Positions 12,146 to 37,517 of a DNA stretch of 64,000 nt are shown here, piece after piece. Within the stretch, counting starts at the first letter, position 1. Each line of letters starts with the position of its first letter. Under the pieces are notes generated by a model. It was not told the origin of the DNA, did not search any database, and saw only the letters and a program-made list of their open reading frames with translations. Origin of the DNA: Yersinia hibernica (GTDB lineage Bacteria > Pseudomonadota > Gammaproteobacteria > Enterobacterales > Enterobacteriaceae); contig NZ_CP032487.1 in assembly GCF_004124235.1 (NCBI RefSeq), forward strand, positions 1,798,001 through 1,862,000. The letters are read 5' to 3'. A program made the position numbers and the translations under genes.

Positions 12146-12186
12146 GGTTATATCCTTCATCAGGGCCGGCAGCTAACAGAGTGGGG

Positions 12187-13489: not shown

Positions 13490-13960
13490 CGTTGATATAT
13501 TAAATCATGCATTCATCAGTACACAGTAATCACTAACAACCCGTGGTCGGGAATATCCACTGGCAACCGGATATTCCAGACCTGAGCAGTTTAGCCCCTC
13601 TCAAATCATCCCTTCTGCATTGTTTCATCTTCTGCTGTGTATTCATTTAATTATTCAGTATGATTTCACATTTATTAATAGATCTAAATTAATTAAGAGA
13701 GCCACGGTGTGAATATTGCACCCTTGCCTGAATTTAGGTGATTAATAAACAATATTATTAATATTTTCAATTTAAATCAATGTGTTGCGTTGATACTGGG
13801 AATGAGCATTAATTAGGGTAGATAACTAAAAATGGAGAGTACCTATCTTAACTGTATATATTTTGCTAGTTAAGAGTTAATTAAAACTGTTTTATTTTAT
13901 TTTTTCCAGACATGAAGTAATAATTCCGCCTCTTAAAAATCGAAGAGTGGAAGTTTAGTT
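13490..13960. other. A+T-rich intergenic region upstream of the fimbrial operon
   Basis: No gene is seen. A long hairpin (13545-13582) has arms GGTC-G-GGAATATCC and GGATATTCC-A-GACC around a ten-base loop. It has no T tail, so it may be a structural or transcript-processing element after the DUF1460 gene. The rest, very A+T-rich, must hold the fimbrial promoter; I could not fix a convincing -35/-10 pair. No recombinase gene or flanking inverted repeat indicating a phase switch was seen. Confidence 0.6.
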
Positions 13961-14560
13961 ATGTATAAAAGGAAAAAAGATATTATTAAGGATGGCGGTA
14001 ATTTAAAAACAAAAATTGCTCCAATTATGTGTTTAGCATTTTCAGTACTCTCTACTTCACCTCATGCTGCGGCTGAAGATGGCACTATTACTTTTACGGG
14101 AGCAGTCTCTGCTGTTACTTGTGAAATAACTGGCGGAACAGAAGAAGGGGGGGCCGGGACTAATGATTTTACCGTTCCTCTTAAAACTGTCAGTACTTCT
14201 GCATTATCAAGTATTGGTCAACGTGCGCAAGCAACTAAATTTTATATCGCATTAAGTGGAGCACAATGTACTGATGGTGCAACAGCAAATGTAAGTTTTG
14301 AAAGAGCCAGAGGCACAATTGACGATAGCACTGGCAATTTGAAAAACTCCGCTACAGGCGCTGCTGCTAATGTGCAAATTAGTATTCTAAATAAAGATGC
14401 TACGCCTTTAAATTTAGCGGAACCAAATGATAAACATCAAGAGCAAACTATTTCAGGTAACAGTGCTCGATTTGATTATTGGGCAGAATATGTAGCCACA
14501 GGTGTGGTGACTGCAGGTAATGTAGAGTCGAGTCTTATTTATTCTATAGTTTATAACTAA
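13961..14560 (+). CDS. Type 1-family fimbrial major subunit
   Basis: A 199-residue pilin. A long N-terminal signal region with basic residues ends near AAA (about residue 39). The mature start DGTITFTGAVSAVTCEI is typical of the donor strand of chaperone-usher pilins. Two cysteines (CEI... and AQCTDG) give the conserved disulfide, and the C-terminus IVYN has the usual penultimate aromatic residue. It is first of an operon with chaperone, usher and adhesin genes. A GTGGAAG ribosome site precedes the ATG. The operon is distinct from the characterised Myf and Psa fimbriae of Yersinia as far as I recognise. Confidence 0.85.
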   Translation: MYKRKKDIIKDGGNLKTKIAPIMCLAFSVLSTSPHAAAEDGTITFTGAVSAVTCEITGGTEEGGAGTNDFTVPLKTVSTSALSSIGQRAQATKFYIALSGAQCTDGATANVSFERARGTIDDSTGNLKNSATGAAANVQISILNKDATPLNLAEPNDKHQEQTISGNSARFDYWAEYVATGVVTAGNVESSLIYSIVYN

Positions 14561-14630
14561 TTTTGGGGGGCTTGCTCTTTAAGAGCCTGTCCCCGATGAT
14601 TATTTTTGCAATGGTTTTAAGGTGTGGAAA

Positions 14631-15371
14631 ATGAGGTTATTAAAAATACTTCTAATAGGCTTTTTTGCGTGTGGTGGATATTCGGCCTATGCCTCTATTC
14701 AAATTATGGCAACACGCATAATTTTTGATGAAAAAAGCAAAGAACAAGTTATTAGAGTCAATAATATTGGGGAACTCCCCTCTTTAGTCCAGGTATGGTT
14801 AGAATCCGATAGGGATTCCATGGACTTTAGTGATGTTGAAAAAGAAGATTTACCTTTTGTGATTAGCCCACCAGTTTCGCGAATAAATGCGGGGAAGGGA
14901 AAGTCGTTTAGAGTTTTTAAAACAGAAGAAGCAAAAGGAAAGTTTCCCCGTGACAGAGAGACATTGCTCTGGGTAAATGTGCTTGATATACCACCAGAGG
15001 TGGAAAACGATAATTCAAAAAATAAGCTAAATCTTGCGTTTCGTACACGCTTAAAGTTTTTATATCGTCCGATCGGCCTATCTTCAGACCCCAGAGTTGC
15101 AGCAGAAAGTGTTAGTTGGGTGGCAAAAAGGACAGGTAAGGCGATTAATATCAAAGGTGAGAATAAGTCACCGTATCACATATCAATCGGTAAATTTGTA
15201 GTAACTGATGGCAGCAAGAAAATTGATTTAGCGGGAGGAATGATCCTTCCATATTCGAACTATGAATTCAATTTTAAGGTTGCAGAACTTAGTAATCAAC
15301 CGGTTAAGCTATTTTATAGTTATATTACTGATTTAGGTGCATTTGTAGAAAAGGAAATAATATTGGAATAA
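14631..15371 (+). CDS. Periplasmic fimbrial chaperone (PapD-like)
   Basis: A 246-residue chaperone with a signal peptide (about residues 1-21). Two immunoglobulin-like domains are expected. The first holds ATRIIFDEKSKEQVIRV, the subunit-capping beta strand region, and the family signature RETLLWVNVLDIPP; the second contains NKSPYHISIGKF and LPYSNYEF. It binds subunits by donor-strand complementation and delivers them to the usher. The upstream GTG (14622) is rejected because AAGGTG is correctly spaced for ATG 14631. It lies 70 bases after the pilin gene. Confidence 0.92.
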   Translation: MRLLKILLIGFFACGGYSAYASIQIMATRIIFDEKSKEQVIRVNNIGELPSLVQVWLESDRDSMDFSDVEKEDLPFVISPPVSRINAGKGKSFRVFKTEEAKGKFPRDRETLLWVNVLDIPPEVENDNSKNKLNLAFRTRLKFLYRPIGLSSDPRVAAESVSWVAKRTGKAINIKGENKSPYHISIGKFVVTDGSKKIDLAGGMILPYSNYEFNFKVAELSNQPVKLFYSYITDLGAFVEKEIILE

Positions 15372-15403
15372 TAAATTAAATATAAAATAACAATACAGGC
15401 GCT

Positions 15404-17959
15404 ATGATTATAATGAAACCTTTCATTTTTAGTATTACTCTATGTTTTTTTCCACTACAGTCATTTTCTGCGGTAAAACATAATGTTATTCCTCAGGGAC
15501 AGGTTAAATTTAAGTCTGGCTTTATGAGGTTTTATGAGCATGGAATTAATTTAGAGGATTTTGATGGAGAAGATACAGTAAAAGCTGGAAAGTATTATGT
15601 AGAAATCAACTTAAACTCCAAAAATATTGAAAGTTCAAATGTAAACTTTATTGAAACAGATAAAGAACCAGGTATTCAACCATGTTTCACACCGAAAGAT
15701 ATACTGGCTTTTGGTGTCAGACAGAACATGCTCCCGCCGGAGTGGCAAAACAAAGATTGCATCTTAATTAACGATATTATCCCAGAGGCAACAATAAATT
15801 TTGACGATGACGAACAGAAGTTATATCTAACGATACCGCAGGCCTACGTGGAGAGTATGCCGAATGGATATATTAGACCAGAGTTATGGGACGAGGGGGT
15901 TCCAGCATTAACCTTAGCTTATAGTTTGAATGCATCTAATTATAAAAACTCATCTGAATACAGTAACCAGAAAAAAAACAAACAATTTTATTATGGCAGC
16001 TTGAATACATCAGCAAAGCTAGGGTCATGGCGACTCTTTACTAATGGCACGGCAAATAGTAGTAGCGATGAGAGTGTAAAGTGGAATAATCAATCTGCTT
16101 ATATACAGCGATCTCTAGCGGCCAGTCAGTCACAATTAATTCTTGGCGATGTGAATACCAATGGTGTTATGTTTAATACAACGCCACTTCGTGGGGCCAG
16201 TGTATATACTGATGATCGCATGCTGCCGCATTCTATGCGGGGATATGCACCTGTTATCCGAGGGGTCGCCGACAGTAATGCCTTGGTCACCATCCGACAA
16301 AATGGCAATGTTATCCATGAAACAAATGTTCCTCCTGGCGAGTTTATTATAAATGATTTAAATACAGCTGGTTATGGTGGGAATATTGAAGTCACTATCA
16401 GAGAGGCAAACGGGAATATAAGAGTACAAGTTGTGCCTTATTCTAGTATCCCTCAACTTTTACGTGAAGGATACTCAAAATATACCGCCACATTAGGTGA
16501 AGTAAGAACCTCAAATCTTAGTGACCCCCCAATGTTATTTGAGGGGAGCTATCAATATGGATTTAACAATTACATCACTGGCTATGGTGGTGTACAAAAA
16601 ACTATATCAAATGATTATTTTGCATTACTTGGTGGGGTGGCATTTAATACGCCAGTCGGTGCGCTGAGTTTTGATGCGACACGCTCTTCAACTTTAGTTA
16701 AAGCAGATGATGAATCGCAGTGTCACTCTACATTTTGCAATATGAGTTTTAAAGTAAGCCTGGCGAAGGTCGTTGAACCAACAAAAACAAATTTTAGCTT
16801 AATGGCCTATCGCTACTCAAGTAGTAATTATTTTACATTAATGGATGCACTAAATACGGTTGAAGCCCAAAAGAGTGGCAACGGTATTCGTCCTGAAAAT
16901 TATCGCGAAGTACTTGAGGCAAATATAAATCAAAATCTATCCCCTGGTTGGGGAAGCCTCTTTTTAACAACCTATTATGGTCGATACTGGAATAAAGATG
17001 TTGATGAGAAAAATACGTTAAACTACCAAGTTGGTTATGCAAACTCGCTAGGAACAGTCAACTATAGCTTAGGTTTTAATCGGTTAAATAATCGCTATGG
17101 TAATAGTGATAATACCTTACGTTTATCACTCAGCATTCCATTAGATACCGCATCAAGTTATCGTAATAGGCCAAGATTAACGTCGACAATAAGTCATAAT
17201 GATCGTGAGTCCCGCTTAAAAACAGCGATTAGTGGCACAGTTGGCGAACATCAAGAATATAGCTATGGGACCTGGGTTGATGGAACAAGCAATAGTGATC
17301 GCAATTTTGGTGTTAACGGTGGATATACTGGCAACACATCATTAATAAACCTTGGTTATAGCCAAGGTAGATCAAACTCTATGGCTTCAGTAAATTTAAG
17401 CAGTGGCGTTGTCGTGCATGCGGGCGGTGTGAATCTATCGCACTCGATTAGCGATACCCTAGGTATTATTGAAGCCAAAGGTGCAACGGGAGCCAGTGTT
17501 TATCCTTATACAAATGCACGGGTTGCTAAAAATGGATATGCTATTTTACCGTATTTGTCACCATTTCAATACAATGATATCTCACTTAATGTAAAAGATA
17601 TGCCAACTAATATAGAGATTGAAGAGGATAGAATTAAAATAGTACCAACAGCAGGTGCTTCTATATTGGTGAAATTTGATACTAAAAATGTTAATAACCA
17701 AATTCTTAAGATTAAGAGTGAAGCAGGAAACTATATTCCCTTTGGGGCCAACGCCTATAATGCTGCTGGTGATTCACTAGGTGTGGTTGGTCAAGGTGGG
17801 AATATCATTCTCTCGAATGAAGAATCGCAGAGTATTTCTATTGTTTGGAATAGTAAAGAAGGTACACAGAAATGTTTTATCAATTATATACCTGAATCCT
17901 ATTCTGAAGATGAAAATATAAAGATCGTCAACACTATTTGTCGTAATGAAATTATCTAA
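15404..17959 (+). CDS. Outer-membrane fimbrial usher (FimD/PapC family)
   Basis: An 851-residue usher, normal length for the family. A signal peptide ends near residue 22 (QSFSA). The N-terminal domain contains the expected cysteine pair (QPCFTPKD and NKDCILIND). The family signature GSLNTSAKLGSWRLFTNG is near residues 198-215, and the plug and barrel region follows with MRGYAPVIRGVADSNALVTI. C-terminal domains close with a second cysteine pair. It forms the pore through which the pilus grows. It starts 32 bases after the chaperone gene. Confidence 0.93.
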   Translation: MIIMKPFIFSITLCFFPLQSFSAVKHNVIPQGQVKFKSGFMRFYEHGINLEDFDGEDTVKAGKYYVEINLNSKNIESSNVNFIETDKEPGIQPCFTPKDILAFGVRQNMLPPEWQNKDCILINDIIPEATINFDDDEQKLYLTIPQAYVESMPNGYIRPELWDEGVPALTLAYSLNASNYKNSSEYSNQKKNKQFYYGSLNTSAKLGSWRLFTNGTANSSSDESVKWNNQSAYIQRSLAASQSQLILGDVNTNGVMFNTTPLRGASVYTDDRMLPHSMRGYAPVIRGVADSNALVTIRQNGNVIHETNVPPGEFIINDLNTAGYGGNIEVTIREANGNIRVQVVPYSSIPQLLREGYSKYTATLGEVRTSNLSDPPMLFEGSYQYGFNNYITGYGGVQKTISNDYFALLGGVAFNTPVGALSFDATRSSTLVKADDESQCHSTFCNMSFKVSLAKVVEPTKTNFSLMAYRYSSSNYFTLMDALNTVEAQKSGNGIRPENYREVLEANINQNLSPGWGSLFLTTYYGRYWNKDVDEKNTLNYQVGYANSLGTVNYSLGFNRLNNRYGNSDNTLRLSLSIPLDTASSYRNRPRLTSTISHNDRESRLKTAISGTVGEHQEYSYGTWVDGTSNSDRNFGVNGGYTGNTSLINLGYSQGRSNSMASVNLSSGVVVHAGGVNLSHSISDTLGIIEAKGATGASVYPYTNARVAKNGYAILPYLSPFQYNDISLNVKDMPTNIEIEEDRIKIVPTAGASILVKFDTKNVNNQILKIKSEAGNYIPFGANAYNAAGDSLGVVGQGGNIILSNEESQSISIVWNSKEGTQKCFINYIPESYSEDENIKIVNTICRNEII

Positions 17960-17980
17960 CCTAATTGAGGTGAGTATTAG

Positions 17981-18955
17981 ATGTTAATTATTAGGATGTT
18001 AGCCATTGTTATTTTATCGTTAGGTTGGATAAGTTCGGGGGCAATAGCGGCAACTTGTTCGGGGAATATAGCAACGGCCTCTATGCTGCCATTGGTTCTT
18101 AACCCAGCAGAGAATGGGGGGATAGGTACAGTTCTTGGCACACAGCTTATTTCCGTCAATGCATTAAATTATACCTGTGGGTCAAATATAAAGACCCGAC
18201 TAACGTCTACTTATACACGTGGTAACTCTTTATCAGCTCTGCCTGATGTATATAATACTGAAATTGGTGGGGTAGGAATCAGAATAAAATGGCCCGTTAG
18301 CCGTGCCACTGCCTATTTACCAACTATTCAAGATTGTCAGTCGCCTTGCACCATAAATAAAGATGATTTATTAATCGAATTTGTTCAAACCGGAAAAGTC
18401 ATTGCAGGCGATATCCCTCTGGGTGAAATTGCAGAGGTTGTTCTTACGGCAGCTGAAGAAACAAGCAATAGTGTAAAATTATTATCTGTAGTGTTAGTAG
18501 CCAATACTTCAGTTGTTGTACGATCCTGCATGATCGCAAATTCAAATTTAAATATTGATTTGGGTAGTTACCCTCTTTCTGATTTCAATACCGGTAATAA
18601 ACATGGAAATAAAATCCCTTTTTCAATTTCAGTATATTGTCCACAAGAGTCCTCCGTGAAAATAGCCTTTACTACTGTTGAACAACAACCTGTAGGTTCA
18701 TCTAGAGGGGTTATTCAAAATACTATTCCCGTAGAGAGCGGTGGTGCCAAAGGAATAGGGACAAGGATGTTAACTGAGAATGGAGTTATTCCTCAACAGG
18801 TAGATGGTACAGTGTCATCAAAAATTTTAGTTAATGCAGATGAACATAAAGATCTGAAGTATTCCGCTCAAATATACATAGTGGATACAGATAGAAAAAA
18901 TATCACATCAGGCAATATTTCTGGCCAAGTTTATTTTAATCTAACGATAGAGTAA
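17981..18955 (+). CDS. Two-domain fimbrial tip adhesin
   Basis: A 324-residue exported protein with a signal peptide (residues 1-23) ending in AIAA. The N-terminal half has four cysteines (ATCSGN, YTCGSN, DCQSPC) and would be the receptor-binding lectin domain. The second half (CMIANSNLNIDLGSYPLSDF to the C-terminal VYFNLTIE) is a pilin domain. This architecture and its position at the end of the operon match FimH/MrkD-type adhesins. A GAGGTGAG ribosome site is present. The receptor cannot be told from sequence. TpsB begins four bases later. Confidence 0.8.
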   Translation: MLIIRMLAIVILSLGWISSGAIAATCSGNIATASMLPLVLNPAENGGIGTVLGTQLISVNALNYTCGSNIKTRLTSTYTRGNSLSALPDVYNTEIGGVGIRIKWPVSRATAYLPTIQDCQSPCTINKDDLLIEFVQTGKVIAGDIPLGEIAEVVLTAAEETSNSVKLLSVVLVANTSVVVRSCMIANSNLNIDLGSYPLSDFNTGNKHGNKIPFSISVYCPQESSVKIAFTTVEQQPVGSSRGVIQNTIPVESGGAKGIGTRMLTENGVIPQQVDGTVSSKILVNADEHKDLKYSAQIYIVDTDRKNITSGNISGQVYFNLTIE

Positions 18956-18959
18956 TATC

Positions 18960-20738
18960 ATGTTTGGTATAGTCAGAATGGTTATCATTAATAGGATGTA
19001 TTTGACAGGCTGCATTGTCGCGCCATTTGCATTTATATGTGCACACGTTAATGCTCAAATACAGCCACCGCAACTAAATACTCAGGCATCAAACGCATCC
19101 AGAGAATTAGATAGACTGGAGCGAAGTCGCACACGCTCAATGATTCAAGATGAAAAACGTCGAGAGAGTGAAATAAGACGTCAGAATAATATTCTCAATG
19201 AGCAGCACGAGAATAATCTTTTGAAGTCAAAACATATGTTTTTTATTCATCACATCAGTATTGAAAACGATGATATCTATGCCCATTCACCACAAAGGCA
19301 GAAGATTATCATGCAATTCTTAAATACTGAGATGGGGCAAAAGGAGATAATGGAATTGGTTAAAGATTTGACCAATTTCTATGTTGGCAAGGGTTATGCG
19401 ACAACTCTGGTAACAGTTCAACCGGGCAGTTTACGCGAGGGAGTGCTTAAATTAGAGGTATTATGGGGGAAGATTGCCGGGTTTAGTGTTGATGGGAATC
19501 CACCCACATTCTTTGAAAAGACCAGGCTGTTTAGTGCCATTCCTTTTGCCCAAGGGAATAAGCTTAAAATGTCAGATATTGACCAAGGTTTGGATAACTT
19601 ACTTCGAGTTTCAAGAACTGATAAATTACAAATTGTTCCAGCGGATGACTTTGGCTACTCAACGTTAGACCTTCATAATTCAACTTATTCTCCTATTTCG
19701 TTCTCGGTAGGGATGAATAACTCAGGCCGTGAAGATGATGGTTGGCATCAATACAATTCGACTTTGACAGTAAATAATTTTTCCGGATTTAATGATTCTT
19801 TGTCTGTCTATTATGCTTACAATGATTTGCATGCCAAAACTGATACTCAAAATTCTTGGTCTGTAAATTACAGTTTGCCACTTGGCTATTGGTTGCTAGA
19901 TGCATCCTTATATCGTTCTGAATATGAAAAGGTGATTGGTGGATACTTTGGTGGCTATCACAGCGAAGGGACTTCCCAGCGAGCTTCTACTAAGCTAAGC
20001 CGAGTCATTTTTCGAGACTCAGTGGGGAAGTTTAGTGCTTATACAAAAGTAGAAGGCCGCGATAACACCAATAAAATAGAAGATATAAAAATAGGAGTTA
20101 GTAGTAAAAAATACAGCAGCATTGCCTTTGGGGTAACTCGAGTTGGTACACTTGGGGGAGGCGGTTTATTTTGGGATTTGAGCTCGACAGCGGGCGTTCC
20201 CTGGTTTGGTGCAGCATGGAAAAATGAACCTGACTTAAAGGGGTTTGATCTAAACTACATAAAATATAATGGCATCGTTAGCTGGTCTAAGGCATTGGCC
20301 CAATATGGTCCAGTGAGTTTAACATATGAACTTAATTCAGGATTTCAATTTACAAAAGATATATTAGTGAGTGATGGTAAACAATCAATTGGCGATGAAT
20401 ATACGGTCCGCGGCTACAAAGAGAGTTCAGTATCGGGACATAACGGTGGCTACATTTCCAATACAGTTCAACTGCCCATTGCTATCAATAAATTGGGGAT
20501 ATGGCAGCTGTCGCCTTTTGCTGGCTATGATCTTGGTTTTATTAAAAACAACTGTACTGATGATATGGGCTCATGCCCCGCAGAGTATTTAACTGGAGCT
20601 GCTCTTGGTCTTAAGGCTGTAGGTAACCATTTCTCCACTTCATTAACATTAGGTTATCCCCTAACCAAACCATCAATATTAAGGAATTCTGATATTGACT
20701 CTAGAACACTAAGCTACAGGTTTGATTTGCGATTCTAA
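18960..20738 (+). CDS. TpsB outer-membrane transporter (FhaC/ShlB family)
   Basis: A 592-residue two-partner secretion transporter that exports the adjacent TpsA. A signal peptide (about residues 1-31, ending VNA) is followed by a highly charged helical segment (residues 45-80, SRELDRLERSRTRS), equivalent to the plug helix. Two POTRA-type domains follow (FFIHHISIEN... and KLEVLWGKIAGFSVDG), then a beta barrel. The conserved loop-6 motif appears as YTVRGYKE near residue 483, and the C-terminal residue is Phe, as usual for Omp85 barrels. Only four bases separate it from the fimbrial adhesin gene, implying one transcript. Confidence 0.92.
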   Translation: MFGIVRMVIINRMYLTGCIVAPFAFICAHVNAQIQPPQLNTQASNASRELDRLERSRTRSMIQDEKRRESEIRRQNNILNEQHENNLLKSKHMFFIHHISIENDDIYAHSPQRQKIIMQFLNTEMGQKEIMELVKDLTNFYVGKGYATTLVTVQPGSLREGVLKLEVLWGKIAGFSVDGNPPTFFEKTRLFSAIPFAQGNKLKMSDIDQGLDNLLRVSRTDKLQIVPADDFGYSTLDLHNSTYSPISFSVGMNNSGREDDGWHQYNSTLTVNNFSGFNDSLSVYYAYNDLHAKTDTQNSWSVNYSLPLGYWLLDASLYRSEYEKVIGGYFGGYHSEGTSQRASTKLSRVIFRDSVGKFSAYTKVEGRDNTNKIEDIKIGVSSKKYSSIAFGVTRVGTLGGGGLFWDLSSTAGVPWFGAAWKNEPDLKGFDLNYIKYNGIVSWSKALAQYGPVSLTYELNSGFQFTKDILVSDGKQSIGDEYTVRGYKESSVSGHNGGYISNTVQLPIAINKLGIWQLSPFAGYDLGFIKNNCTDDMGSCPAEYLTGAALGLKAVGNHFSTSLTLGYPLTKPSILRNSDIDSRTLSYRFDLRF

Positions 20739-20797
20739 ATAAATAATAAATTCTATCTTAATAAAGTTATATCCAGCAAACTGCAGGAGTTTTACGT

Positions 20798-23700: not shown

Positions 23701-26700
23701 TGGTGATATTTTTAGTGATAATAACCTCTCATTGATTCTCTCTAACGATTATCACTACAATGATGATAGTGGGGATATTAATTCTCGAGGTGAGTTCTCT
23801 ATTAATACTACGGGATCCATCATTATTGATCGCATTCTGGAAAGTGCGGCAAGCATACTGCTTAACGCGGACCAGAACATTAAAATATCAAGCAATCAAT
23901 CTATTTTGAGTCTTAAGGATATCATTCTTAAGGCAATTAATATTACTAACAGTAGCGGAGCTTTGATTTTCTCCTCGCAAAATATTGTTCTTGACGCTGA
24001 GAAAGGTAATTTTCTAAATGAAGATAATGCTAATGTTCTTAGTATGGGTAAAATTGATATTGTTGCGGAGAATATAAAGAATGACGGTGGTCATATTAGT
24101 TCTCAAGGCGACATGGCATTAGATGCTAAAGTTATTGATAATATTAGCAAATATGATAACCCTGGATGGGTTGCAGGCCCTGCGCAAAATGCTGTAGGTT
24201 CGCATGAATGGAAACAAGGTTTTGGAAGTTTCGCATATTATAGTGCAAGCCTGTCAGGTTCAATTCCAACGTGGATTGGCGATTTAAAATTAACGACAAT
24301 GGCCGAAATCTCATCCGGCGGTAACTTAAATATTAATCAAAAGAATATTTATGCTGATAAAACAGTAAATAATACAGGTGGTATTATTCAAGCAAGCAAA
24401 GATATGACAATAACTGGAACTGTTAATAACTCACCAGAATATAATGAAATGTCAGTTTACGATTATCTGACGGAGACACTTAGCACCCCGATTACACTAG
24501 AAGTGTATAGAAAATTCATGAGTGGCAAATCTCACTATGCTGAATTTGACTCGCTATATCAATTACTGGACTTTTTCTTAGGCAATGGAAGCCCGGCCTC
24601 GATCTCTGGAAAGGAGTCCATAATACTTGATACACAGTCCAATAGCTTTAATAGCTTAAAAGAAATGGCTAAGCAGAGTGAACAATTAAACAGTATTATG
24701 AAAAGAGTGTTTGGTGATGCGTGGCTGTCAGATAGCCAAGAGAAGCTATCACAAGATTGGGCCAAAATAACGGATGCAAATAATTCGTCTTTGAAAGGTT
24801 TAAAAGATTATGGCTTGTCAGATAATAACGGTGGAATTATCGCAGGGGGTAACCTGACTCACAATGGTGGAGCATTTAACAATGGATTGTTCGATTCGAA
24901 TCTCGACGCTAATAAAATAATAGTTAATATTGGTGATAAGGAGGTTGTGGTCACTCAGAATCCTTACGAAATTAATATTGGCTTGAAAACCATTGCCGAA
25001 CTGACTAAAGGATTAAGTACCACAAAAACCTATACTGAACTCGCGAAAATTCAAGGGTTATTTGTTTCTAACCAGAAATGGAAAGATGTTGATTTCACTG
25101 CCAAGGTCGGGGATGGTGCCAGTAACCCTATTTATCCGTTTTATGAAACGCGAACGGAGATGATTGATCAGAGCCTTTTCTTTGGATCACAGTATTTCTT
25201 TGACCAAATTGGTTATATTCCAGAAACACCTGTTTTGGTTGTGGGCGATAATTATTTTATTAGTGAAGTTATTCGCCGTCAATTAAACGAGTCTGTTGGC
25301 ACCTTTTTCAGCGTGCGCGATGGTGTTGATGGTACCGAGTTGGTTGAGAAATTAATGTCCAATGCGGCAACTGTAAATGGTGTAGAAGATTTTACCGTCG
25401 GTAAAGCGTTAACTGATGAGCAGATTGCCGGACTGGATAAAGATATCGTTTGGTTTGTAACGGAAAATATTGATGGGCACGATGTACTCACCCCTAAAAT
25501 TTATTTCGCCACAACAACGTTAGAACAATTAGAAAGTGGCCGCTATGATGGTTCTGCCGTAGTCCATGCGGGCGGTAATATAGATATTGATGCATCCTCC
25601 TTTAACAATGTTAATGGCCAGGTCAGTGCCGGTGGCAATATTAATATTCAATCAGAAGGGAATATTAATAATAGTAGTGTCGGGATGAATGGCGGTATCA
25701 CCTCTGGTGGAGATTTATCATTGGTCTCCAGTGGCGGTTCTATAACCAATAGTGGCGCAGCTCTTAGTGCCGGTAATGATATTACTTTACAGGCGGATAA
25801 TGGTTCCATTGAGCTTACTGCCAGCCAAGGCGCTAACGTTTCCGGTAATCAAGAACTGCATTATTATGATGATGGTGTCACTGCCGGTGGCAGCATTGAC
25901 ATGAGTGCCAAAGATATCACTGTTAACGCTGTTGATATTGCTGCGGGAAAAGATATTAGCCTGACTTCAACTGAAGGTGATGTCACCTTCAATAATATGT
26001 ATGAGGTTGAGGGTAATTATGAATACAGCCATAAGTCTACGGGGATACTAAGTCACGAATCGACAGAAACTATTAGCTCTAGCGCGACAAGTGTCGATAG
26101 TTCAGTCAACGCCGGCGGCAAGTTTACCGTTAATTCCGCGAATGATATTGTTCTCAAAGGTGGTGAATATAATGCGCAATCTGGTGAATTGAAGGCTGCT
26201 GGCGATATAGACATCCAAACATCACAAGATTACAGTTATTCTGAAACCACGGTTGAAAGTACTGACCTAAAATTTGGCGCAGGTGCGAGTGGTTTAGGGC
26301 AATCGGTAGCTTATGATATTAGCGGTCTGGATGGGGAAAGCACCAGTAGTAGCACGGGTGAACATAATAATCTTGGGTCGGATATCACCAATGCCGGGTC
26401 TAGGCCGGGTCGAGCTCCAACATCTTCCTCTGGTAATTTCCAAGCCGGGTTAGAAACCGTCACGACAGTTGATACGCAGCAAACGACGACTAATAATAAT
26501 GCTTCACTTAACTTTACCGATTCTATGACATTAGAAGCGGGCAATGTGGTTGATATTGGCGGCGGTAATTTTAGCACCGAAGGGGCGTTAAATATTGTTG
26601 CCGATGAAGTTAAGTCGACAAAATATGAAGATGAAGTGATAACGACCAGTGAGGAAACCGTATCATTTTATGGCGTAAAGGGTGAAGCTCATAGTTCATT

Positions 26701-28699
26701 GGTTGATGCTTTTGATAAAGCCGGTAATTTGGCTGAAAAGAGCAATGACGGGCAAGAAATTAATGCCGGTTTAACGGCGCTAGAAACGGCAGGTAGTGCC
26801 TCTAACCTTATATTCAATGATTTACTTGGAGGCTCAGTCACCGCTGGATTCGATACCACCACGACCAGTAGTTCATCGACGACTAAAAGTGAAAACATTA
26901 CTAATATAAATGCGGGTAATGTATCAATTACTAGTAATGGCGATACTACGTTAAAAGGTGTTGAATTATCGGCAGAAAGTGTCGCGATCACTACTGGTGG
27001 TGATTTGAATATTTTAGCCGCCGAGTCTTCAACTGAAGATTGGTCGCAAAAAGATACCCATTCTGCGGGCGTCAGTGCTGGGGCTTCCGTCGCACCGACA
27101 GGGTCTGGTGTGGGAGTATCTGTTGATTACCATGGCAGCACTTCAACCTCAACTGGCTCAAGCCATACATATACCAACTCCAACCTTAATAGCGGTGATA
27201 TCAGCATTAACACTGGCGGAGATATGACTTTAGCTGGCGGTAATATTCAGTCAGAAACCGCAGACCTTAATATTACTGGCGATCTGAATGTGCAGAGTGT
27301 GCAAGACACAGTCAATAACCAGACTAATAGCAAGGAGTGGGGGGGATCAGTCGGGGTTGCTGTTGCAACCAATGGCGGCCTTATTCCAACAGTGGCAGGG
27401 AACTACGGTCAAGGTGGCGAACATTATGATTCGAAGACTACCGGGACCCAGACCGGTATTAATACCAGCGGTGAGCTGAATATCGCTACTGGAGGGGACC
27501 TCAATCTTACTGGCGCGCACATTGTCTCTGATTCCAAAACCGGAACTGTAGATGTTGCGGGCAATATTAATGCAGTCGAGTTATCAGATACTATTGATCA
27601 AGATGGTGCCTACGGTGGTGGTGGTGGCGGTATTTCTAAAACAGGCATACCGACAGTCAATGGCTATTACAACACGGTAGAAAAAGTTGAATATCAGGAA
27701 GATCAAAAAGCGACAATCGATGTTGGTAATATTAACGGAAATGTACAAGGTGAATTGAATACCGATGGTGAAACACTTTCTCAAGTGAATGTGGATAAAG
27801 TGACCGCATCAAATAGTATTTCATTTACTGCTGGCAGTTTATCGAGTTCAAATAAACCGGCAAAAAATAGCAATACATCCAAACCATCGAAAACCACTGC
27901 GGCGCAAACCGACAAACCGACACCGCCGAAAACCAAGCCGGTAGAAACGGACAAACCGACACCGCCGAAAACCAAGCCGGCAGAAACCGATAAACCGACA
28001 CCGCCGAAAACCAAGCCGGTAGAAACGGACAAACCGACACCGCCGAAAACCAAACCGGTAGAAACGGATAAACCGACACCGCCGAAAACCAAACCGGTAG
28101 AAACGGATAAACCGACACCGCCGAAAACCAAGCCGGCAGAAACGGATAAACCGACACCGCCGAAAACCAAGCCGGTAGAAACGGATAAACCGACACCGCC
28201 GAAAACCAAGCCGGTAGAAACGGATAAACCGACACCGCCGAAAAGCAAGCCGGCAGAAACGGATAAACCGACACCGCCGAAAACCAAGCCGGTAGAAACG
28301 GATAAACCGACAGCACCAAAGAATCGTCCATCAAAACCAGTGAAAGGAGAGGAGAGGCCAAATCATATGAGCCCTAGTTATCCGGGCTCTAAATTGGGGG
28401 GTGATTTCAAAGGTCATTTACCTAAAGATGATAAAAACTCTTCTCAGTGGATCAAAAAAACCACCACAGGAGCTGAACCAATATCCTACCCTAAACCATC
28501 CGAGATTCGGCAGCCTACAGCGCCGTCTAAAACACCAGTGTCTTCGGTTAAATCACCGGTAGAAAGCAATCCAAATCATATAAGCCCAAGTTACCCAGGC
28601 TCGAAACAGGATGGCAGTTTTATTGGCAATTTACCTAAAGATGATGGTACATCGTCAGGTTGGATCAAACACCCGACAACTGATTCGTCCAAACGATAG
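20798..28699 (+). CDS. TpsA filamentous-haemagglutinin-like exoprotein with repetitive Pro/Lys-rich tail
   Basis: A 2,633-residue secreted protein, probably a large beta-helical adhesin. Layout: an extended signal peptide (about 1-47); the TPS domain (about 48-300) with NPNDNGISHNKF and IIANENGISVNG, a variant of the family's NPNGI-type motif; a long beta-helix region of loose Asn/Ser/Ile-rich repeats; haemagglutinin repeats near 1590-2340 that include the phrase NAGNVSITSNGD; ten 13-residue Pro/Lys-rich repeats (2371-2500); and two 38-residue modules (2521-2558 and 2592-2629). No VENN motif, recognisable toxin domain or immunity gene was found, so a contact-inhibition toxin is unlikely. CAGGAG precedes the ATG, 59 bases after TpsB. 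Confidence 0.93.
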   Translation: MSKNKVKTNNYASSFIGKLTQENLHKKLCPIYLALVAVLPSLSYANLVPDTNSNAPTISESANGTPTVNIINPNDNGISHNKFEDFNVGPDGLIFNNSIQDGVSSIGGYIIKNGQLQQEASAIISEVTGAKGSYLNGTMEVFGKKADLIIANENGISVNGVSTINANNLTLSTGRVEYGENGNVQLNVNRGLIAVEGQGLSTEGLTHFDMISRTVKLDGEVSGSADIKVVAGLNTYDTKTRQHQVRDLSAADTPKVAIDGSSLGSMYGGKIQLISTESGVGVRHKGSLVGNQTVEISADGDLVLTAISSKSGDVNLSGNNIDISVNENTGFGGVISNGSLIIRALSQVTLSADAVSNNGNIRITADSLLQNAARIFAMSGDSDKIDVTSIFIDVKGEYEITGTLFALDASGKKIDNAIISLVDGNYVVSINGEAIDSATIISDAAISSQSGNVVVNANSFLNQGGGVNSQNGTLSFTINELFDNDGVVNASGPLSIIANNLHNKGVLYTDQNANVIVGSLVNKGLLQSEKNNTIKSNSIHNSGNITAAKDLSLNVSEEINNQNGGNILSGANLKINSDGLQAVNINNNNSLIQGGAIEISNANTITNSNDAKLISENSIKLNDIKELNNKGGLSLIQANEIQLTNVDSIKNTDEAKILAADQLSISHSSELINQNSSILSSGDIYLSDIETIKNVDGFINADGTVSINNSTNLLNIGTGAVQYSGSGIIANNIDIHSVSNVENSGGSYISALGEWLKLELINSIISDESSVITSDNDLMISNVDNLNNKGVIYSGADMSLANIGVLSNVGDGTGNIGIINSGRNLYVSYVSSFINSIAAIINSDGDAIFKNINKLDNVNAIIQASGLLSVEAKTIVNSSGKGVSTGDAIIIGVGGLAIESDSISNLNGATLFSDADISIKAKDVNNSESNIIGDNVDIQGDNLNNSVGYIYSANSLLIKLAESLNNLSGDIFSDNNLSLILSNDYHYNDDSGDINSRGEFSINTTGSIIIDRILESAASILLNADQNIKISSNQSILSLKDIILKAINITNSSGALIFSSQNIVLDAEKGNFLNEDNANVLSMGKIDIVAENIKNDGGHISSQGDMALDAKVIDNISKYDNPGWVAGPAQNAVGSHEWKQGFGSFAYYSASLSGSIPTWIGDLKLTTMAEISSGGNLNINQKNIYADKTVNNTGGIIQASKDMTITGTVNNSPEYNEMSVYDYLTETLSTPITLEVYRKFMSGKSHYAEFDSLYQLLDFFLGNGSPASISGKESIILDTQSNSFNSLKEMAKQSEQLNSIMKRVFGDAWLSDSQEKLSQDWAKITDANNSSLKGLKDYGLSDNNGGIIAGGNLTHNGGAFNNGLFDSNLDANKIIVNIGDKEVVVTQNPYEINIGLKTIAELTKGLSTTKTYTELAKIQGLFVSNQKWKDVDFTAKVGDGASNPIYPFYETRTEMIDQSLFFGSQYFFDQIGYIPETPVLVVGDNYFISEVIRRQLNESVGTFFSVRDGVDGTELVEKLMSNAATVNGVEDFTVGKALTDEQIAGLDKDIVWFVTENIDGHDVLTPKIYFATTTLEQLESGRYDGSAVVHAGGNIDIDASSFNNVNGQVSAGGNINIQSEGNINNSSVGMNGGITSGGDLSLVSSGGSITNSGAALSAGNDITLQADNGSIELTASQGANVSGNQELHYYDDGVTAGGSIDMSAKDITVNAVDIAAGKDISLTSTEGDVTFNNMYEVEGNYEYSHKSTGILSHESTETISSSATSVDSSVNAGGKFTVNSANDIVLKGGEYNAQSGELKAAGDIDIQTSQDYSYSETTVESTDLKFGAGASGLGQSVAYDISGLDGESTSSSTGEHNNLGSDITNAGSRPGRAPTSSSGNFQAGLETVTTVDTQQTTTNNNASLNFTDSMTLEAGNVVDIGGGNFSTEGALNIVADEVKSTKYEDEVITTSEETVSFYGVKGEAHSSLVDAFDKAGNLAEKSNDGQEINAGLTALETAGSASNLIFNDLLGGSVTAGFDTTTTSSSSTTKSENITNINAGNVSITSNGDTTLKGVELSAESVAITTGGDLNILAAESSTEDWSQKDTHSAGVSAGASVAPTGSGVGVSVDYHGSTSTSTGSSHTYTNSNLNSGDISINTGGDMTLAGGNIQSETADLNITGDLNVQSVQDTVNNQTNSKEWGGSVGVAVATNGGLIPTVAGNYGQGGEHYDSKTTGTQTGINTSGELNIATGGDLNLTGAHIVSDSKTGTVDVAGNINAVELSDTIDQDGAYGGGGGGISKTGIPTVNGYYNTVEKVEYQEDQKATIDVGNINGNVQGELNTDGETLSQVNVDKVTASNSISFTAGSLSSSNKPAKNSNTSKPSKTTAAQTDKPTPPKTKPVETDKPTPPKTKPAETDKPTPPKTKPVETDKPTPPKTKPVETDKPTPPKTKPVETDKPTPPKTKPAETDKPTPPKTKPVETDKPTPPKTKPVETDKPTPPKSKPAETDKPTPPKTKPVETDKPTAPKNRPSKPVKGEERPNHMSPSYPGSKLGGDFKGHLPKDDKNSSQWIKKTTTGAEPISYPKPSEIRQPTAPSKTPVSSVKSPVESNPNHISPSYPGSKQDGSFIGNLPKDDGTSSGWIKHPTTDSSKR
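27908..28330 (+). repeat. Ten 39-bp tandem repeats in TpsA plus a degenerate eleventh
   Basis: Each 39-base unit encodes TDKPTPPKTKPVE or the variant ending AE. Ten full units occupy 27908-28297, and a diverged eleventh (TDKPTAPKNRP) runs to 28330. Nucleotide divergence is minimal: a few third-base changes, V/A alternation, and one T-to-S change (KSKP). The unit is in frame, so copy-number change would lengthen or shorten the tail without a frameshift. Confidence 0.97.
28358..28684 (+). repeat. Duplicated 38-residue C-terminal module in TpsA
   Basis: Copy one is at 28358-28471 and copy two at 28571-28684, 99 bases apart. Both read PNH(M/I)SPSYPGSK, then G-x-F, LPKDD, a Ser pair and WIK. The second ends four residues before the stop. 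The copies differ at many third positions, so the duplication is older than the 39-base repeats. Confidence 0.9.
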
Positions 28700-28727
28700 C
28701 TTAGACTAGGTTTATCGAGATAATACT

Positions 28728-28766
28728 AATAACAGGCTGTCATTACTTGGCAGCCGGTTATTTATT
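28728..28766 (+). terminator. Terminator of the fimbrial-TPS operon
   Basis: AATAAC and GTTATT form the outer stem, and GGCTGTC pairs with GGCAGCC inside (one G-T pair). TTATTTATTC follows. It lies 29 bases after the TpsA stop. Confidence 0.75.
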
Positions 28767-28897
28767 CTCCATTCTTTCTACTGCTGCTGAGTTTTAACGC
28801 AATGGCGATAGTTCGGTATATAAAAGCCGAACAAATTTCACCTACTTAACTATAAGGGAATGTACAATCATCGGAACGAGATGAAAATAGAATATTT

Positions 28898-29047
28898 ATG
28901 AAAAACACACTCGCCGTTATTTCAAGTTGTGGTGAGAATCCTAGTTCGTCGTTGTTCCATCCGAGTCAGATTAACCTTTGTGACGAACTGCTAATTCTTG
29001 GTAGATTTGCCATCGCAATGTTCTCTTTTATTGATTATTATTGCTGA
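28898..29047 (+). CDS. Possible 49-residue ORF in front of the MarT-like gene
   Basis: An ATG ORF encodes MKNTLAVISSCGENPSSS and continues to a TGA at 29045-29047. It is not recognised. No good ribosome site precedes it (AATAGAATATTT), and its 3' end overlaps the -35 box proposed for the next gene. It may be a leader ORF, a remnant of a lost regulator, or chance. The rest of the 28767-29092 gap shows no gene. Confidence 0.25.
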   Translation: MKNTLAVISSCGENPSSSLFHPSQINLCDELLILGRFAIAMFSFIDYYC

Positions 29048-29077
29048 CTATCTATAATAAATTTTTGATACGTATCA
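29031..29077 (+). promoter_or_regulatory. Promoter and palindromic operator of the MarT-like gene
   Basis: -35 TTGATT (29031-29036), 16-base spacer, perfect -10 TATAAT (29053-29058). The start is expected near 29065. A perfect 12-base palindrome TGATACGTATCA (29066-29077) lies immediately at or after the start, between the promoter and the ribosome site, where a bound protein would repress. Confidence 0.6.
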
Positions 29078-29092
29078 TTGGAAATAATTGGC

Positions 29093-29899
29093 ATGAGTAA
29101 ATGTTATACTATAAATGATAATATTACATTTTACCCTGAAAGTGGTATCCTTTCATCCTCTTCGGGGGCTCGCATTAAGATCAACGTGCCAACAGCACAA
29201 TTACTAGAGGCATTTGTTAATAGAGTTGGTTTGATCATATCGCAAAGTGATTTGTATTCAATTGCTTGGGGTGACAATGGTGTGAATGTCACACCGAACA
29301 CTCTGTATCAGAACATTTCATTGTTACGTAAGGCATTGCAAGATATCGGGTTATCTGGTGAAACCATCACGACTGTCAGAGGAAAAGGTTTTATCTTTAC
29401 GGTCACTCAAGTTGCAGAATGCGAAGTCAATATTGATCCTGAAGATGAGGTCGCTGAAGTTATTCTCGAGAATAGTGCCCCTGAGCAACAAGATGAAAAG
29501 TCAGCAACCAAAAATAGCTATAAAATATATAATATAGTATTGCTGTTTGCATTGGTATTAATTTTCTTTGGCGCTGTATTTTATTTTATTCATAAAAGTA
29601 TTCCTAAACGTATACTTGATTATCCTAAAAACTTCACCTTTTTATCAAAAATTGATGGGTGCAGTATCTTCACCAGCACTGAATTACATAACTTAGAAAA
29701 TCAGGAGAAAGTCAATGCGTTTCTCAGTGCCCAATCATTAGAATGTAATACTTACCCCTACATTTACTTAAACCATACAATAAGACACCCTACAATATCA
29801 GTCATTTCTTGTGAGTTTGAAGTTAACTACAGTAAGAAGAATAATTGTAGAACTGAAATATTCATTAATCATGGTGGTTTTAATGAAGTTAAATACTAA
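29093..29899 (+). CDS. ToxR/MarT-like membrane-anchored transcription regulator
   Basis: A 268-residue regulator. The N-terminal OmpR-type winged helix spans about residues 8-106, including LYQNISLLRKALQ (recognition helix) and TVRGKGFIF (wing). An acidic linker (110-140) leads to one transmembrane helix (about 144-167), and a periplasmic domain with three cysteines (CSIF, LECNT, CEFE, plus NNCRTE) may sense disulfides or stress. This is the ToxR/CadC/MarT design. ATG 29093 (after GGAAA) is preferred to TTG 29078. It overlaps the FidL-like gene by 17 bases, like the Salmonella marT-fidL pair, and lies just after the adhesin operon, its likely target. Confidence 0.85.
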   Translation: MSKCYTINDNITFYPESGILSSSSGARIKINVPTAQLLEAFVNRVGLIISQSDLYSIAWGDNGVNVTPNTLYQNISLLRKALQDIGLSGETITTVRGKGFIFTVTQVAECEVNIDPEDEVAEVILENSAPEQQDEKSATKNSYKIYNIVLLFALVLIFFGAVFYFIHKSIPKRILDYPKNFTFLSKIDGCSIFTSTELHNLENQEKVNAFLSAQSLECNTYPYIYLNHTIRHPTISVISCEFEVNYSKKNNCRTEIFINHGGFNEVKY

Positions 29900-30359
29900 A
29901 TACATACTACTGATTTTCATATCAGTCATCATGATTGTTTCCGCTATTGCTTATGCTTACTTTTTAGTGGATAACAACAATAAAAAACTAAATTGCCATG
30001 GCTTGCATTATACATATAGTAAAGATTTTAACATAAAGTCCAACATTGAAATAAACCTATATAACAAAAATGGTTATATGATAATAAACGGAATTGTGAC
30101 TAACAATAACATACCATATCAATTAACCAGGAAGACACTATTTAATATCTCTGATGTTGATAATAAAACCATTCTGACTTTTACTGGTATTGAAATTAGT
30201 CTTTCAGACGAAGTGAGCCGAACTAATCTTGAGCAGATGCTACCTAACTTTATGTCTCAAATCGGGAGTAACCTCTTAATTTCCATTTATAGAGTTAACG
30301 ATAATAACTATATTATTGAGTCTAATGGCGTGGCAAGTTTTCTGTGCAATAAGGATTAG
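29883..30359 (+). CDS. FidL-like inner-membrane protein
   Basis: A 158-residue protein with one N-terminal transmembrane helix (about residues 7-28, YILLIFISVIMIVSAIAYAY) and a periplasmic domain bearing two cysteines (LNCHGL and SFLCNKD at the end). It matches the size and layout of FidL-type partners of MarT. It probably stabilises or tunes the upstream regulator, as ToxS does for ToxR; this is inference. ATG 29883 (after GGTGG) lies inside the end of the regulator gene, so translation is coupled; the earlier GTG at 29811 is rejected. Confidence 0.75.
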   Translation: MKLNTKYILLIFISVIMIVSAIAYAYFLVDNNNKKLNCHGLHYTYSKDFNIKSNIEINLYNKNGYMIINGIVTNNNIPYQLTRKTLFNISDVDNKTILTFTGIEISLSDEVSRTNLEQMLPNFMSQIGSNLLISIYRVNDNNYIIESNGVASFLCNKD

Positions 30360-30734
30360 TTTATTGGCTACTCTGCTTAAACGTCACCGTGATTTTGACT
30401 ATGACAAACTGTGATATTTAAGCATTTTTTCTAGATTCCATGCCTTTATTTGTTCTTTTTAAGGTTATATTCATTATTCTGAATATTAACCAAGTCTTAA
30501 CTGGGCTAAATTTCGCTCAACTAAAGCCCATCCGCCTCCCACAGTTGCTGTAAAATCCCCATAAAAAAACCACATAATTTATTTTTATTTCAATGGGTTA
30601 TGCTGTTCTTGAAGCGCTTTGATATGGCCCTATCTGCATAATTTCATTAATTAATTTTTATTAAGACCTTATGATTTATATTGTTATTTAGCTTGTGTTT
30701 TAATTGTCGTCCTAATTTTTTAGAGTCTATTTTT
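30360..30734. other. A+T-rich intergenic region before the LuxR gene
   Basis: No gene, clear terminator or convincing promoter box was found in these 375 bases. The region is very A+T-rich throughout, with T runs near 30425 and 30650. It presumably holds the end of the marT-like transcript and the promoter of the LuxR gene. Confidence 0.5.
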
Positions 30735-31268
30735 ATGCGCTGCATGATAACTATATCTGACCACGATAAATTTTTTTCGCATGGGTTGTATCATATATTT
30801 AAAAACCACCTTAAGGCTTGTTTATTGGTTAAGGCTACCAACCTGGGCAATGAAACTGATGATGACTTTATCACTATATCCTTTTTTGAGGATGTCAGTG
30901 TGATTCTCAAAATTAGGGAAAAAAAACATATGGTAAAAGAACTGGTTTCAGAAGTTGTACTTTTTAGGAGTGACAGTAGTCATCAATTAATCCGTAAAGT
31001 TGAATCTGTAATCGCCAAAATGAAAAAGCATGGTCACCAGTATAGTGCCCCCAATAATAGTCATGAAACTATTCAATTAACGCCAACTCAAATAAAAATT
31101 TGCAAATTTTTTTATAATGGGATTACCACGAAGACAGCGGCTATATTGTTGAATCTAAGTGAGAAAACCATTAGCACTCACAAACGAAATGTTATGAGGA
31201 AGATAAATGTTATGAATAATCAAGATTTTTACCGGTGGATTAAAAAGAATAAGAATCACTATTTTTAA
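30735..31268 (+). CDS. LuxR-type helix-turn-helix regulator
   Basis: A 177-residue regulator with a C-terminal LuxR/GerE DNA-binding domain (about residues 112-168). LTPTQIKICKFFYNGITTKT is followed by LSEKTISTHKRNVMRKI, the recognition helix. The N-terminal part (SDHDKFFSHGLYHIFK) resembles the short, non-phosphorylated receiver-like domains of fimbrial LuxR regulators; the classic phospho-acceptor arrangement is not evident. ATG 30735 is preferred to the upstream TTG at 30681; TAGAG stands nine bases before it. Lying next to a fimbrial-TPS locus, it may control adhesin expression. Confidence 0.82.
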   Translation: MRCMITISDHDKFFSHGLYHIFKNHLKACLLVKATNLGNETDDDFITISFFEDVSVILKIREKKHMVKELVSEVVLFRSDSSHQLIRKVESVIAKMKKHGHQYSAPNNSHETIQLTPTQIKICKFFYNGITTKTAAILLNLSEKTISTHKRNVMRKINVMNNQDFYRWIKKNKNHYF

Positions 31269-31311
31269 ATGGAAGTGAGAATAAGTTAACTTCAAACAAT
31301 AAGGTTTTACT

Positions 31312-31818
31312 TTGATAAACGATGTTGCTCTTTCGAATAAAATTCATCTGATATTAAAAATAATGCTGTCTATCGTATTTGTTTTTTTGCTTTCATTTTT
31401 ACTGCTAAAATTTAGACATGATAAAATTGATATTATTAATTGTAATGCGAATCTTACCATTCATAGAGAAGAATTGGGGCTCACAACAAAACTTATGGTC
31501 GAGTTTTCCATGAATAATAAAAATGGAATTGTCTATATTGATGGTGTTGTTTATAAAAACCATGAAAAAGTAGGCACGGTAAGTCGTAGAACTTTTTTTG
31601 ATGTCACCGAGGTTAATGATGATTTGTTATTAACATCGAAAAAAAACTGGGTGACTGAAACGAATAATGTGAGTGAGTCTTTATTTGCAGATCTGATGCT
31701 ATCTAAATTTTATTTCGTCGATGGTCATCCTATGGCGGCTTTCTTCACTAAAAGTCGTAACGGAAGTTATTATATTTCGACTCGAACAATGCCCCATGTG
31801 TACTGCTCTGAACGCTAG
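31312..31818 (+). CDS. Second FidL-like membrane protein
   Basis: A 168-residue protein with a transmembrane helix near residues 12-32 (LILKIMLSIVFVFLLSFLL) and a periplasmic domain. It shares a cysteine near the helix (IINCNAN) and one close to the end (HVYCSER) with the other FidL-like protein, and both have a central phrase of the form YIDGVVYKN / IINGIVTNN, then RRTFFDVTEV / RKTLFNISDV. TTG at 31312 is accepted as start because AAGG lies seven bases upstream; the first ATG would fall inside the helix. It follows the LuxR gene by 43 bases. Confidence 0.7.
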   Translation: MINDVALSNKIHLILKIMLSIVFVFLLSFLLLKFRHDKIDIINCNANLTIHREELGLTTKLMVEFSMNNKNGIVYIDGVVYKNHEKVGTVSRRTFFDVTEVNDDLLLTSKKNWVTETNNVSESLFADLMLSKFYFVDGHPMAAFFTKSRNGSYYISTRTMPHVYCSER

Positions 31819-32039
31819 AGTTAGACTTTTAACAATAGTGATCAATTATCATACTGAGGGTATAATTGCTGGTTAGCCTGCGGTGAGTAACCCGTCAGCG
31901 CGCACTCTTCATTGCGGCATACTGATTATATCCCTTGGGAGGGATGGTCATGTGTCAGCGCCATTATCTGTTAATTGTCTTTATACCGATCAGGCTCCGC
32001 CTGTATAAAAAGCCGCTGTCTGGCATACCTGCAATGCAT

Positions 32040-37513: not shown

Positions 37514-37517
37514 AATA

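Follow-up and report, generated by a model that had tools for sequence, protein, structure and literature searches.

A candidate mobile operon joining a chaperone-usher pilus to an FHA-like giant adhesin and its exporter in Yersinia hibernica and other bacteria

The subject of this analysis is a six-gene array in a 64,000-nucleotide (nt) stretch of the Yersinia hibernica chromosome (hereafter the window; NZ_CP032487.1, positions 1,798,001 to 1,862,000). Genes for a pilin, a chaperone, an usher, an adhesin, a TpsB transporter, and a TpsA exoprotein follow one another on the + strand at 13961-28699, with four regulatory genes after them. Based on comparison of sequences, we consider it probable (about 0.78) that the array is a mobile operon producing, from the same transcript, a chaperone-usher pilus and a giant adhesin resembling filamentous haemagglutinin (FHA), the latter with its own FhaC-like exporter. 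Comparison between genomes shows that the six genes are inherited and transferred together, in keeping with a single origin. The pilin, PapD-like chaperone, usher, and tip adhesin in one array identify a chaperone-usher pilus; TpsB and TpsA form a two-partner secretion (TPS) pair. The gene content, shared strand, short gaps (4 bases between the adhesin and TpsB genes), and single end hairpin described in the original prediction were confirmed (Table 1).

Related loci were collected by TpsB alignment from one genome per species, 77 being kept from the best 80 matches, and the gene content of each was established by tblastn with the window proteins. Loci with a TpsB of at least 43% identity were taken as the family (23 loci, L015-L037), the next locus standing at 33%. 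All six genes, in the same order and on the same strand, were found in 21 of the 23. L027 is without the full array, as it begins inside tpsB at a contig end, and L028 (Enterobacter) has TpsB-TpsA of the family with the pilus genes absent. Among the more distant TpsB loci (L038-L091), an usher lay nearby in 5 of 54 and the gene order of the window was seen in none; four of these five are from Bordetella and place the usher between tpsA and tpsB, and the fifth, from Pseudomonas, has its pilus genes on the opposite strand. In all 26 rows the adhesin-TpsB gap lay between -5 and 45 nt. The TpsB-TpsA gap was 4 to 54 nt in all but one of 28 rows (G252 and L035 being one locus); the exception, L034 at -76 nt, arises under the rule that the most upstream start is used. 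Carriers were found in Yersinia, Rahnella, Ewingella, Chimaeribacter, Erwinia, Citrobacter, Cedecea, Klebsiella, Enterobacter, Lelliottia, Providencia, and Cupriavidus, and the array is also present on two plasmids, of Y. enterocolitica and Providencia alcalifaciens. Across the order, 3 of 394 genomes drawn passed the strict threshold.

For the ushers, a tree of 46 sequences placed the 25 belonging to the six-gene module in one clade against 21 others (support 100/100), the latter being 16 from the window's genome and relative G008, four from Bordetella, and one from Pseudomonas. Five of 21 usher matches stand outside this set of others: two are module ushers entered under other names, and L125, L127, and L131 are short or split. 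At G000:C1:182347-184061 of the window's genome (L127, L131), an usher gene is split over two frames. In the TpsB tree (36 sequences), 27 module proteins likewise formed one clade against nine others (support 100/99). The same subgroups could be recognized in both trees: Cupriavidus; Erwinia; Enterobacter/Lelliottia/Citrobacter sedlakii; Chimaeribacter/Rahnella/Ewingella; Providencia/Citrobacter JGM124/Cedecea/Klebsiella; and Yersinia. Yersinia pairs with the Providencia/JGM124/Cedecea/Klebsiella group in both, with weaker support from the usher (91/88, 59/90). A Citrobacter clade was rejected by usher (p 0.0004) and TpsB (p 3e-13) alike, as was an Enterobacteriaceae clade without Providencia (p 2e-6 and 2e-8, respectively). 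Because the subgroups match and both genes reject the same two taxonomic groupings, the pilus and TPS genes appear to travel together. The plain reading of these sequences is that the array would have arisen a single time, passed between lineages as a unit, and settled thereafter. A swap of the pilus cassette in the Providencia/Citrobacter JGM124/Cedecea/Klebsiella group, suspected from usher identity down to ~31%, was rejected because those ushers nest within the module clade, albeit as a long branch, and the TpsB tree recovers this group, again long-branched.

Distances were correlated for all 15 gene pairs (rho 0.46-0.90; 0 of 999 permutations each). The correlation was mostly tighter inside each block (pilus, 0.76-0.90; TPS, 0.87) than across the two (0.46-0.76), which, with the lone TpsB-TpsA pair of L028, speaks for two independent adhesin operons lying side by side under separate promoters. 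We regard such an arrangement as unlikely, given the order kept in all 26 rows with no gap above 45 nt, the congruent trees, and the shared departures from taxonomy. Conserved order, gaps, congruent trees, and co-varying distances also bear out the earlier proposal of a single adhesin unit of pilus and giant exoprotein.

Neighborhoods, judged by the adjoining open reading frames (ORFs), were common within subgroups of loci. Genes that we take from their translations to be speB/speA-like lie beside L023, L028, and L036, and the C. sedlakii locus is close to this site, behind what is presumably a transketolase-like gene; genes read in the same way as erpA and btuF adjoin L021, L022, and L030, and presumed phn and nrd genes adjoin L020 and L024. 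The speA/speB neighborhood of L028 looks the same as in relatives having pilus genes. On the 135-kb Y. enterocolitica plasmid (NZ_CP124250.1; L111/L013), the operon adjoins two GH18 genes and a type II secretion cluster, and a YrIlm inverse autotransporter and another autotransporter are also near it. On the Providencia plasmid (L014, 28251-36257), a Wzz-like gene and, beyond it, a CS1-type fimbrial cluster come after the operon.

At the chromosomal site in the window, the island lies between a thiamine-pyrophosphate enzyme gene (10478-12160) and a PF10139 gene (32076-34502) that adjoins srfB. These flanking genes are 19.9 kb apart in the window versus 0.45 to 2.4 kb in 16 of 24 other Yersinia genomes; eight of the 16 empty sites were aligned, and the remaining eight of the 24 genomes are without a close copy of the left flanking gene. 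By TpsB, the operon is present in 5 of 25 Yersinia genomes, and usher identity gives the identical five. Long stretches aligned at either island end share ~87-89% DNA identity with relatives G008 and G019. Synonymous divergence (dS) between the window and these two was 0.18-0.37 for five operon genes (pilin to tpsB) and 0.28-0.37 for the four regulators, versus 1.16-2.6 for flanking genes where computable, values above 1 being near saturation; two comparisons with G008 were excluded, that of amiA for frame trouble and that of the 32076 gene because its dS could not be computed. This contrast of low dS inside the block with high dS in the flanks therefore indicates that the block moved between Yersinia species well after the species split. 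The comparison shows, as far as sequence can tell, that the block came to this site by horizontal transfer, and the transfer envisaged in the original prediction is thus borne out by the dS contrast and the shared taxonomic departures. Ratios of nonsynonymous to synonymous divergence (dN/dS) of 0.08-0.27 against G008 for the same five operon genes indicate purifying selection. An 11-nt direct repeat, CTGTGTATTCA, occurs at both island edges (13635, 32043), the right copy inside a palindrome; a common 11-mer is found in 5% of shuffled pairs, and the 11-mer is missing from the eight empty-site stretches at up to 1 mismatch, so that a target-site duplication is not claimed. The right flank (32076-37531) holds the PF10139 "Putative bacterial virulence factor" gene and an SrfB gene.

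The two exporters differ in domain content. TpsB contains POTRA_2, POTRA_3, and ShlB, i.e. two POTRA domains and a barrel, and TpsA has an N-terminal TPS domain (PF05860, E 1.3e-51), as in type Vb secretion; the family profile of TpsB scores FhaC above CdiB, with FhaC the best PDB relatives. The body of TpsA consists of haemagglutinin repeats (Fil_haemagg_2), followed by a proline-rich tail that varies across the family. A TPS and Fil_haemagg_2 chassis is also used by CdiA, so a CdiBA contact-dependent growth inhibition system beside a pilus operon was considered; it is exceedingly improbable. No toxin or pre-toxin domain was found in TpsA by Pfam, its C terminus is made of proline-rich repeats, and the only non-overlapping + strand ORF of at least 30 amino acids (aa) between tpsA and the marT-like gene has 49 aa (28898-29047). 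The absence of a toxin domain and this single short ORF argue against growth inhibition, as does the FhaC-like profile of TpsB. A usher that itself exports TpsA, as a CupB-type P-usher would, has a precedent in the CupB cluster, described as joining chaperone-usher genes with a TpsA-like protein (PMC3031594). For the window this is very unlikely, as the usher gave no POTRA match at E-values up to 1 and the operon has its own POTRA-bearing TpsB. With a plain usher and an FhaC-like TpsB, two separate outer-membrane exits are therefore expected.

In the last 300 residues, the median proline fraction was 0.14 in 22 stop-terminated family TpsA proteins versus 0.03 in 21 others (highest 9%), the latter drawn from the 54 distant loci by requiring a + strand match, a stop codon, and a length of 1000 aa or more. 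A C-terminal motif W-x-x-(L/M/P)-(L/M/P/E) beyond the proline-rich tail occurs in 13 of the 22, not in the window's TpsA, and is suggestive only. The tpsA of L036 is broken and that of relative G011 runs across an assembly gap; both were kept as found. In L036 (11718-19982), the tpsA frame is interrupted and a second ORF lies in the same region. For Bordetella FhaB, a preprint describes the proline-rich region and C-terminal segment as mattering for colonization (PMC13232309). By analogy, the TpsA tail suggests a similar role, and it could act as a late-secreted stalk or brake.

For the hairpin after the pilin gene, folding in the window gave z -2.77 against dinucleotide shuffles, and the 78 nt after the pilin stop reached z ≤ -2 in 22 of 23 enterobacterial rows by mononucleotide shuffles; 1 of 3 Bordetella rows did so. 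Transcription of the proposed operon would start upstream of the pilin gene and end after tpsA, giving one transcript, and this hairpin would raise pilin output above that of usher, TpsB, and TpsA. Pilins and adhesin would then exit through the usher and TpsA through TpsB, the latter to be displayed as a filament, a division of labor in which the pilus would serve long-range adhesion and TpsA close-range adhesion.

Several points weigh against the operon reading or parts of it. Co-inheritance demonstrates linkage, not physical coupling, and the TpsB-TpsA pair of L028, which probably lost its pilus half, implies that TpsA export need not depend on pilus genes. Monophyly of the Yersiniaceae is rejected only by TpsB (p 0.013), the usher test giving p 0.16. 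A promoter scan was at chance level (65 found versus 66.4 expected) and so singled out no promoter, and internal promoters are possible. The post-pilin hairpin reached z ≤ -2 in none of three Cupriavidus rows, nor in L023, and its control used mononucleotide shuffles for every row except the window. Two of the 22 family tails, those of L036 (2%) and L025, are not proline-rich beyond the controls. A composite surface machine, in which TpsA export or display depends on pilus assembly through a shared outer-membrane site or through TpsA engaging the pilus, would account for usher and TpsB lineages staying joined through transfers between families and to Cupriavidus; we hold this as an outside possibility.

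The four regulatory genes had been described in the original prediction as dedicated to the operon, and this assignment did not stand. In relatives G008, G024, and G011, the marT-fidL-luxR-fidL2 set lies upstream of another chaperone-usher operon (an unassigned ORF, a PapD chaperone, a fimbrial subunit, two PapD chaperones, an 873-aa usher, and an unassigned ORF; Pfam on the G024 copy), and in G019, as far as the sequence was fetched, the first genes of this second operon likewise come after the set. G024 has the regulator set (marT 86%, luxR 70%) and gave no TpsB or usher of the six-gene family; in G011 the set and the six-gene operon lie on separate contigs, and marT contains one stop. The operon's usual neighbors are also missing from the window. 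In G008, G019, and G011 it is preceded by a MarT-like gene distinct from the window's (at 42-44%) and followed, past tpsA, by a FidL-like gene that is likewise distinct; the former has no close copy in the window's genome (best 47%, the window's own marT), and the latter is cut to a 21-nt remnant (Table 1), the next 787 nt of G008 being absent. A similar marT/fidL-like pair is present on the Y. enterocolitica plasmid, with two glycosyl hydrolase genes between pair and operon, and in G007 no such FidL-like gene was found downstream of the operon, the contig ending before the upstream side. The window's genome has no copy of the second operon's usher, the best of its 12 usher matches reaching 40%. 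In the flanks of the 21 non-Yersinia loci (L014, L018-L037) as fetched, some of which end at contig ends, a MarT-like gene was found only in Erwinia L025 and L032 (32-42% over 97-117 residues), and there was one weak LuxR match, in L019 (Chimaeribacter). Judged from these gene orders, the four regulators are probably leftovers of the second fimbrial operon and not the six-gene operon's own.

It is accordingly doubtful that the set acts as the operon's dedicated envelope sensors, for all that it adjoins the operon on the same strand with every gene open. The dN/dS values against G008 of marT (0.14) and fidL1 (0.11) show purifying selection although the second fimbrial usher is gone; luxR, at 0.46 against 0.15-0.19 among relatives, evolves faster or more loosely in the window. 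Since marT and fidL1 stay under purifying selection, the MarT-FidL pair may now control the six-gene operon in a new role. The MarT-like protein has an N-terminal winged helix (PF00486), one hydrophobic segment read in translation, and a presumed periplasmic part. FidL-like protein 1 gave no direct match to FidL_like PF15941, with which 3 of 15 homologues are annotated, and was modelled as a ToxS/VtrC-like barrel, so that the set looks like a ToxR-ToxS-type sensor. Envelope sensing, as first proposed, is thus upheld in kind only, in that the regulators look like a membrane sensor pair. ToxR-ToxS, VtrA-VtrC, MarT-FidL, PsaE-PsaF, and MyfE-MyfF similarly combine a membrane winged-helix regulator with a small membrane partner; the window pair differs in that it appears inherited from a neighboring fimbrial operon. 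On the side of control by this pair, MarT of Salmonella is reported to activate the adhesin gene misL and to be co-transcribed with fidL (PMC2827545), and PsaE-PsaF and MyfE-MyfF are described as controlling Yersinia fimbriae, MarT being of the membrane winged-helix type too (PMC10269533). Regulators adjoining an adhesin locus need not be that locus's own.

Table 1. Positions of the island, the six-gene array, and the regulatory genes in the window
Feature	Position	Strand	Remarks
Island	13638..31984	.	~18.3 kb; matched in relatives G008 and G019 elsewhere on the chromosome, with one internal gap
Major pilin	13961..14560	+	PF16970/PF00419
RNA hairpin directly 3' of pilin stop codon	14560..14600	+	Folding versus shuffles
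Periplasmic pilus chaperone	14622..15371	+	PapD_N/PapD_C
Outer-membrane usher	15404..17959	+	Pfam; no POTRA match
Two-domain pilus adhesin, MrkD-like receptor-binding domain	17981..18955	+	
TpsB transporter, FhaC-like	18960..20738	+	FhaC the best PDB relatives of the family profile
TpsA giant exoprotein, 2633 aa: TPS domain, haemagglutinin repeats, proline-rich repeat tail	20798..28699	+	
39-nt tandem repeat, 10.4 copies, coding for the TpsA proline-rich tail	27906..28312	+	
Terminator-like hairpin 3' of tpsA	28735..28755	+	
21-nt match to the start of the G008 fidL-like gene (the one after tpsA)	28892..28912	+	
MarT-like membrane regulator	29078..29899	+	PF00486; start may be ATG at 29094
FidL-like membrane partner 1	29883..30359	+	Overlaps marT-like gene; predicted ToxS/VtrC-like barrel
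LuxR-type regulator	30681..31268	+	ATG start at 30735 likelier; fast divergence in this lineage
FidL-like membrane protein 2	31312..31818	+	Label from weak similarity to FidL-like protein 1 only

No description of the six-gene unit was found in literature titles and abstract starts, with partial coverage of subscription papers. The genome paper of Chimaeribacter arupi reports a fimbrial operon of four genes, equal in length to their counterparts in L026, and lists a nearby ShlB/FhaC-family gene in another table, on hemolysins; in the parts of that paper available, no link is drawn between the two (PMC10587679). What appeared to be a one-off becomes a family of pilus and giant-adhesin operons, apparently of one origin, and a mechanical or regulatory reason for co-producing a pilus and an FHA-like filament becomes testable in environmental species.

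Among known systems, Bordetella fhaB-fim-fhaC likewise has an FHA-like TpsA, an FhaC-like TpsB, and chaperone-usher pilus genes in one locus, and its TpsA is described as having a proline-rich C-terminal region (PMC13232309). The order there differs, being tpsA, pilin, chaperone, usher, tpsB in L046, L047, and L051 (L056 is alike minus a pilin match), and the Bordetella usher and TpsB fall outside the six-gene family clades, though the family TpsB is FhaC-like by profile. With the pilus genes lying between tpsA and tpsB, this agrees with convergence, one of the origins first proposed, and not with descent; the Bordetella pairing arose separately. P. aeruginosa CupB (CupB5) differs in its POTRA-bearing usher and two chaperones, compared with the plain usher, one chaperone, and in-operon TpsB of the window. 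The Klebsiella pneumoniae KpFhaB/FhaC pair is an enteric FHA-like TPS pair of similar size with haemagglutinin repeats; by the description available it comprises two adjacent genes in a 10.7 kb region, with a PF13018 signal and a VENN domain and no pilus genes named (PMC13272123). Linkage of pilus and TPS genes is already known from Bordetella and CupB (PMC3031594), and the six-gene unit adds a third arrangement, distinct in gene order and in having an exporter of its own.

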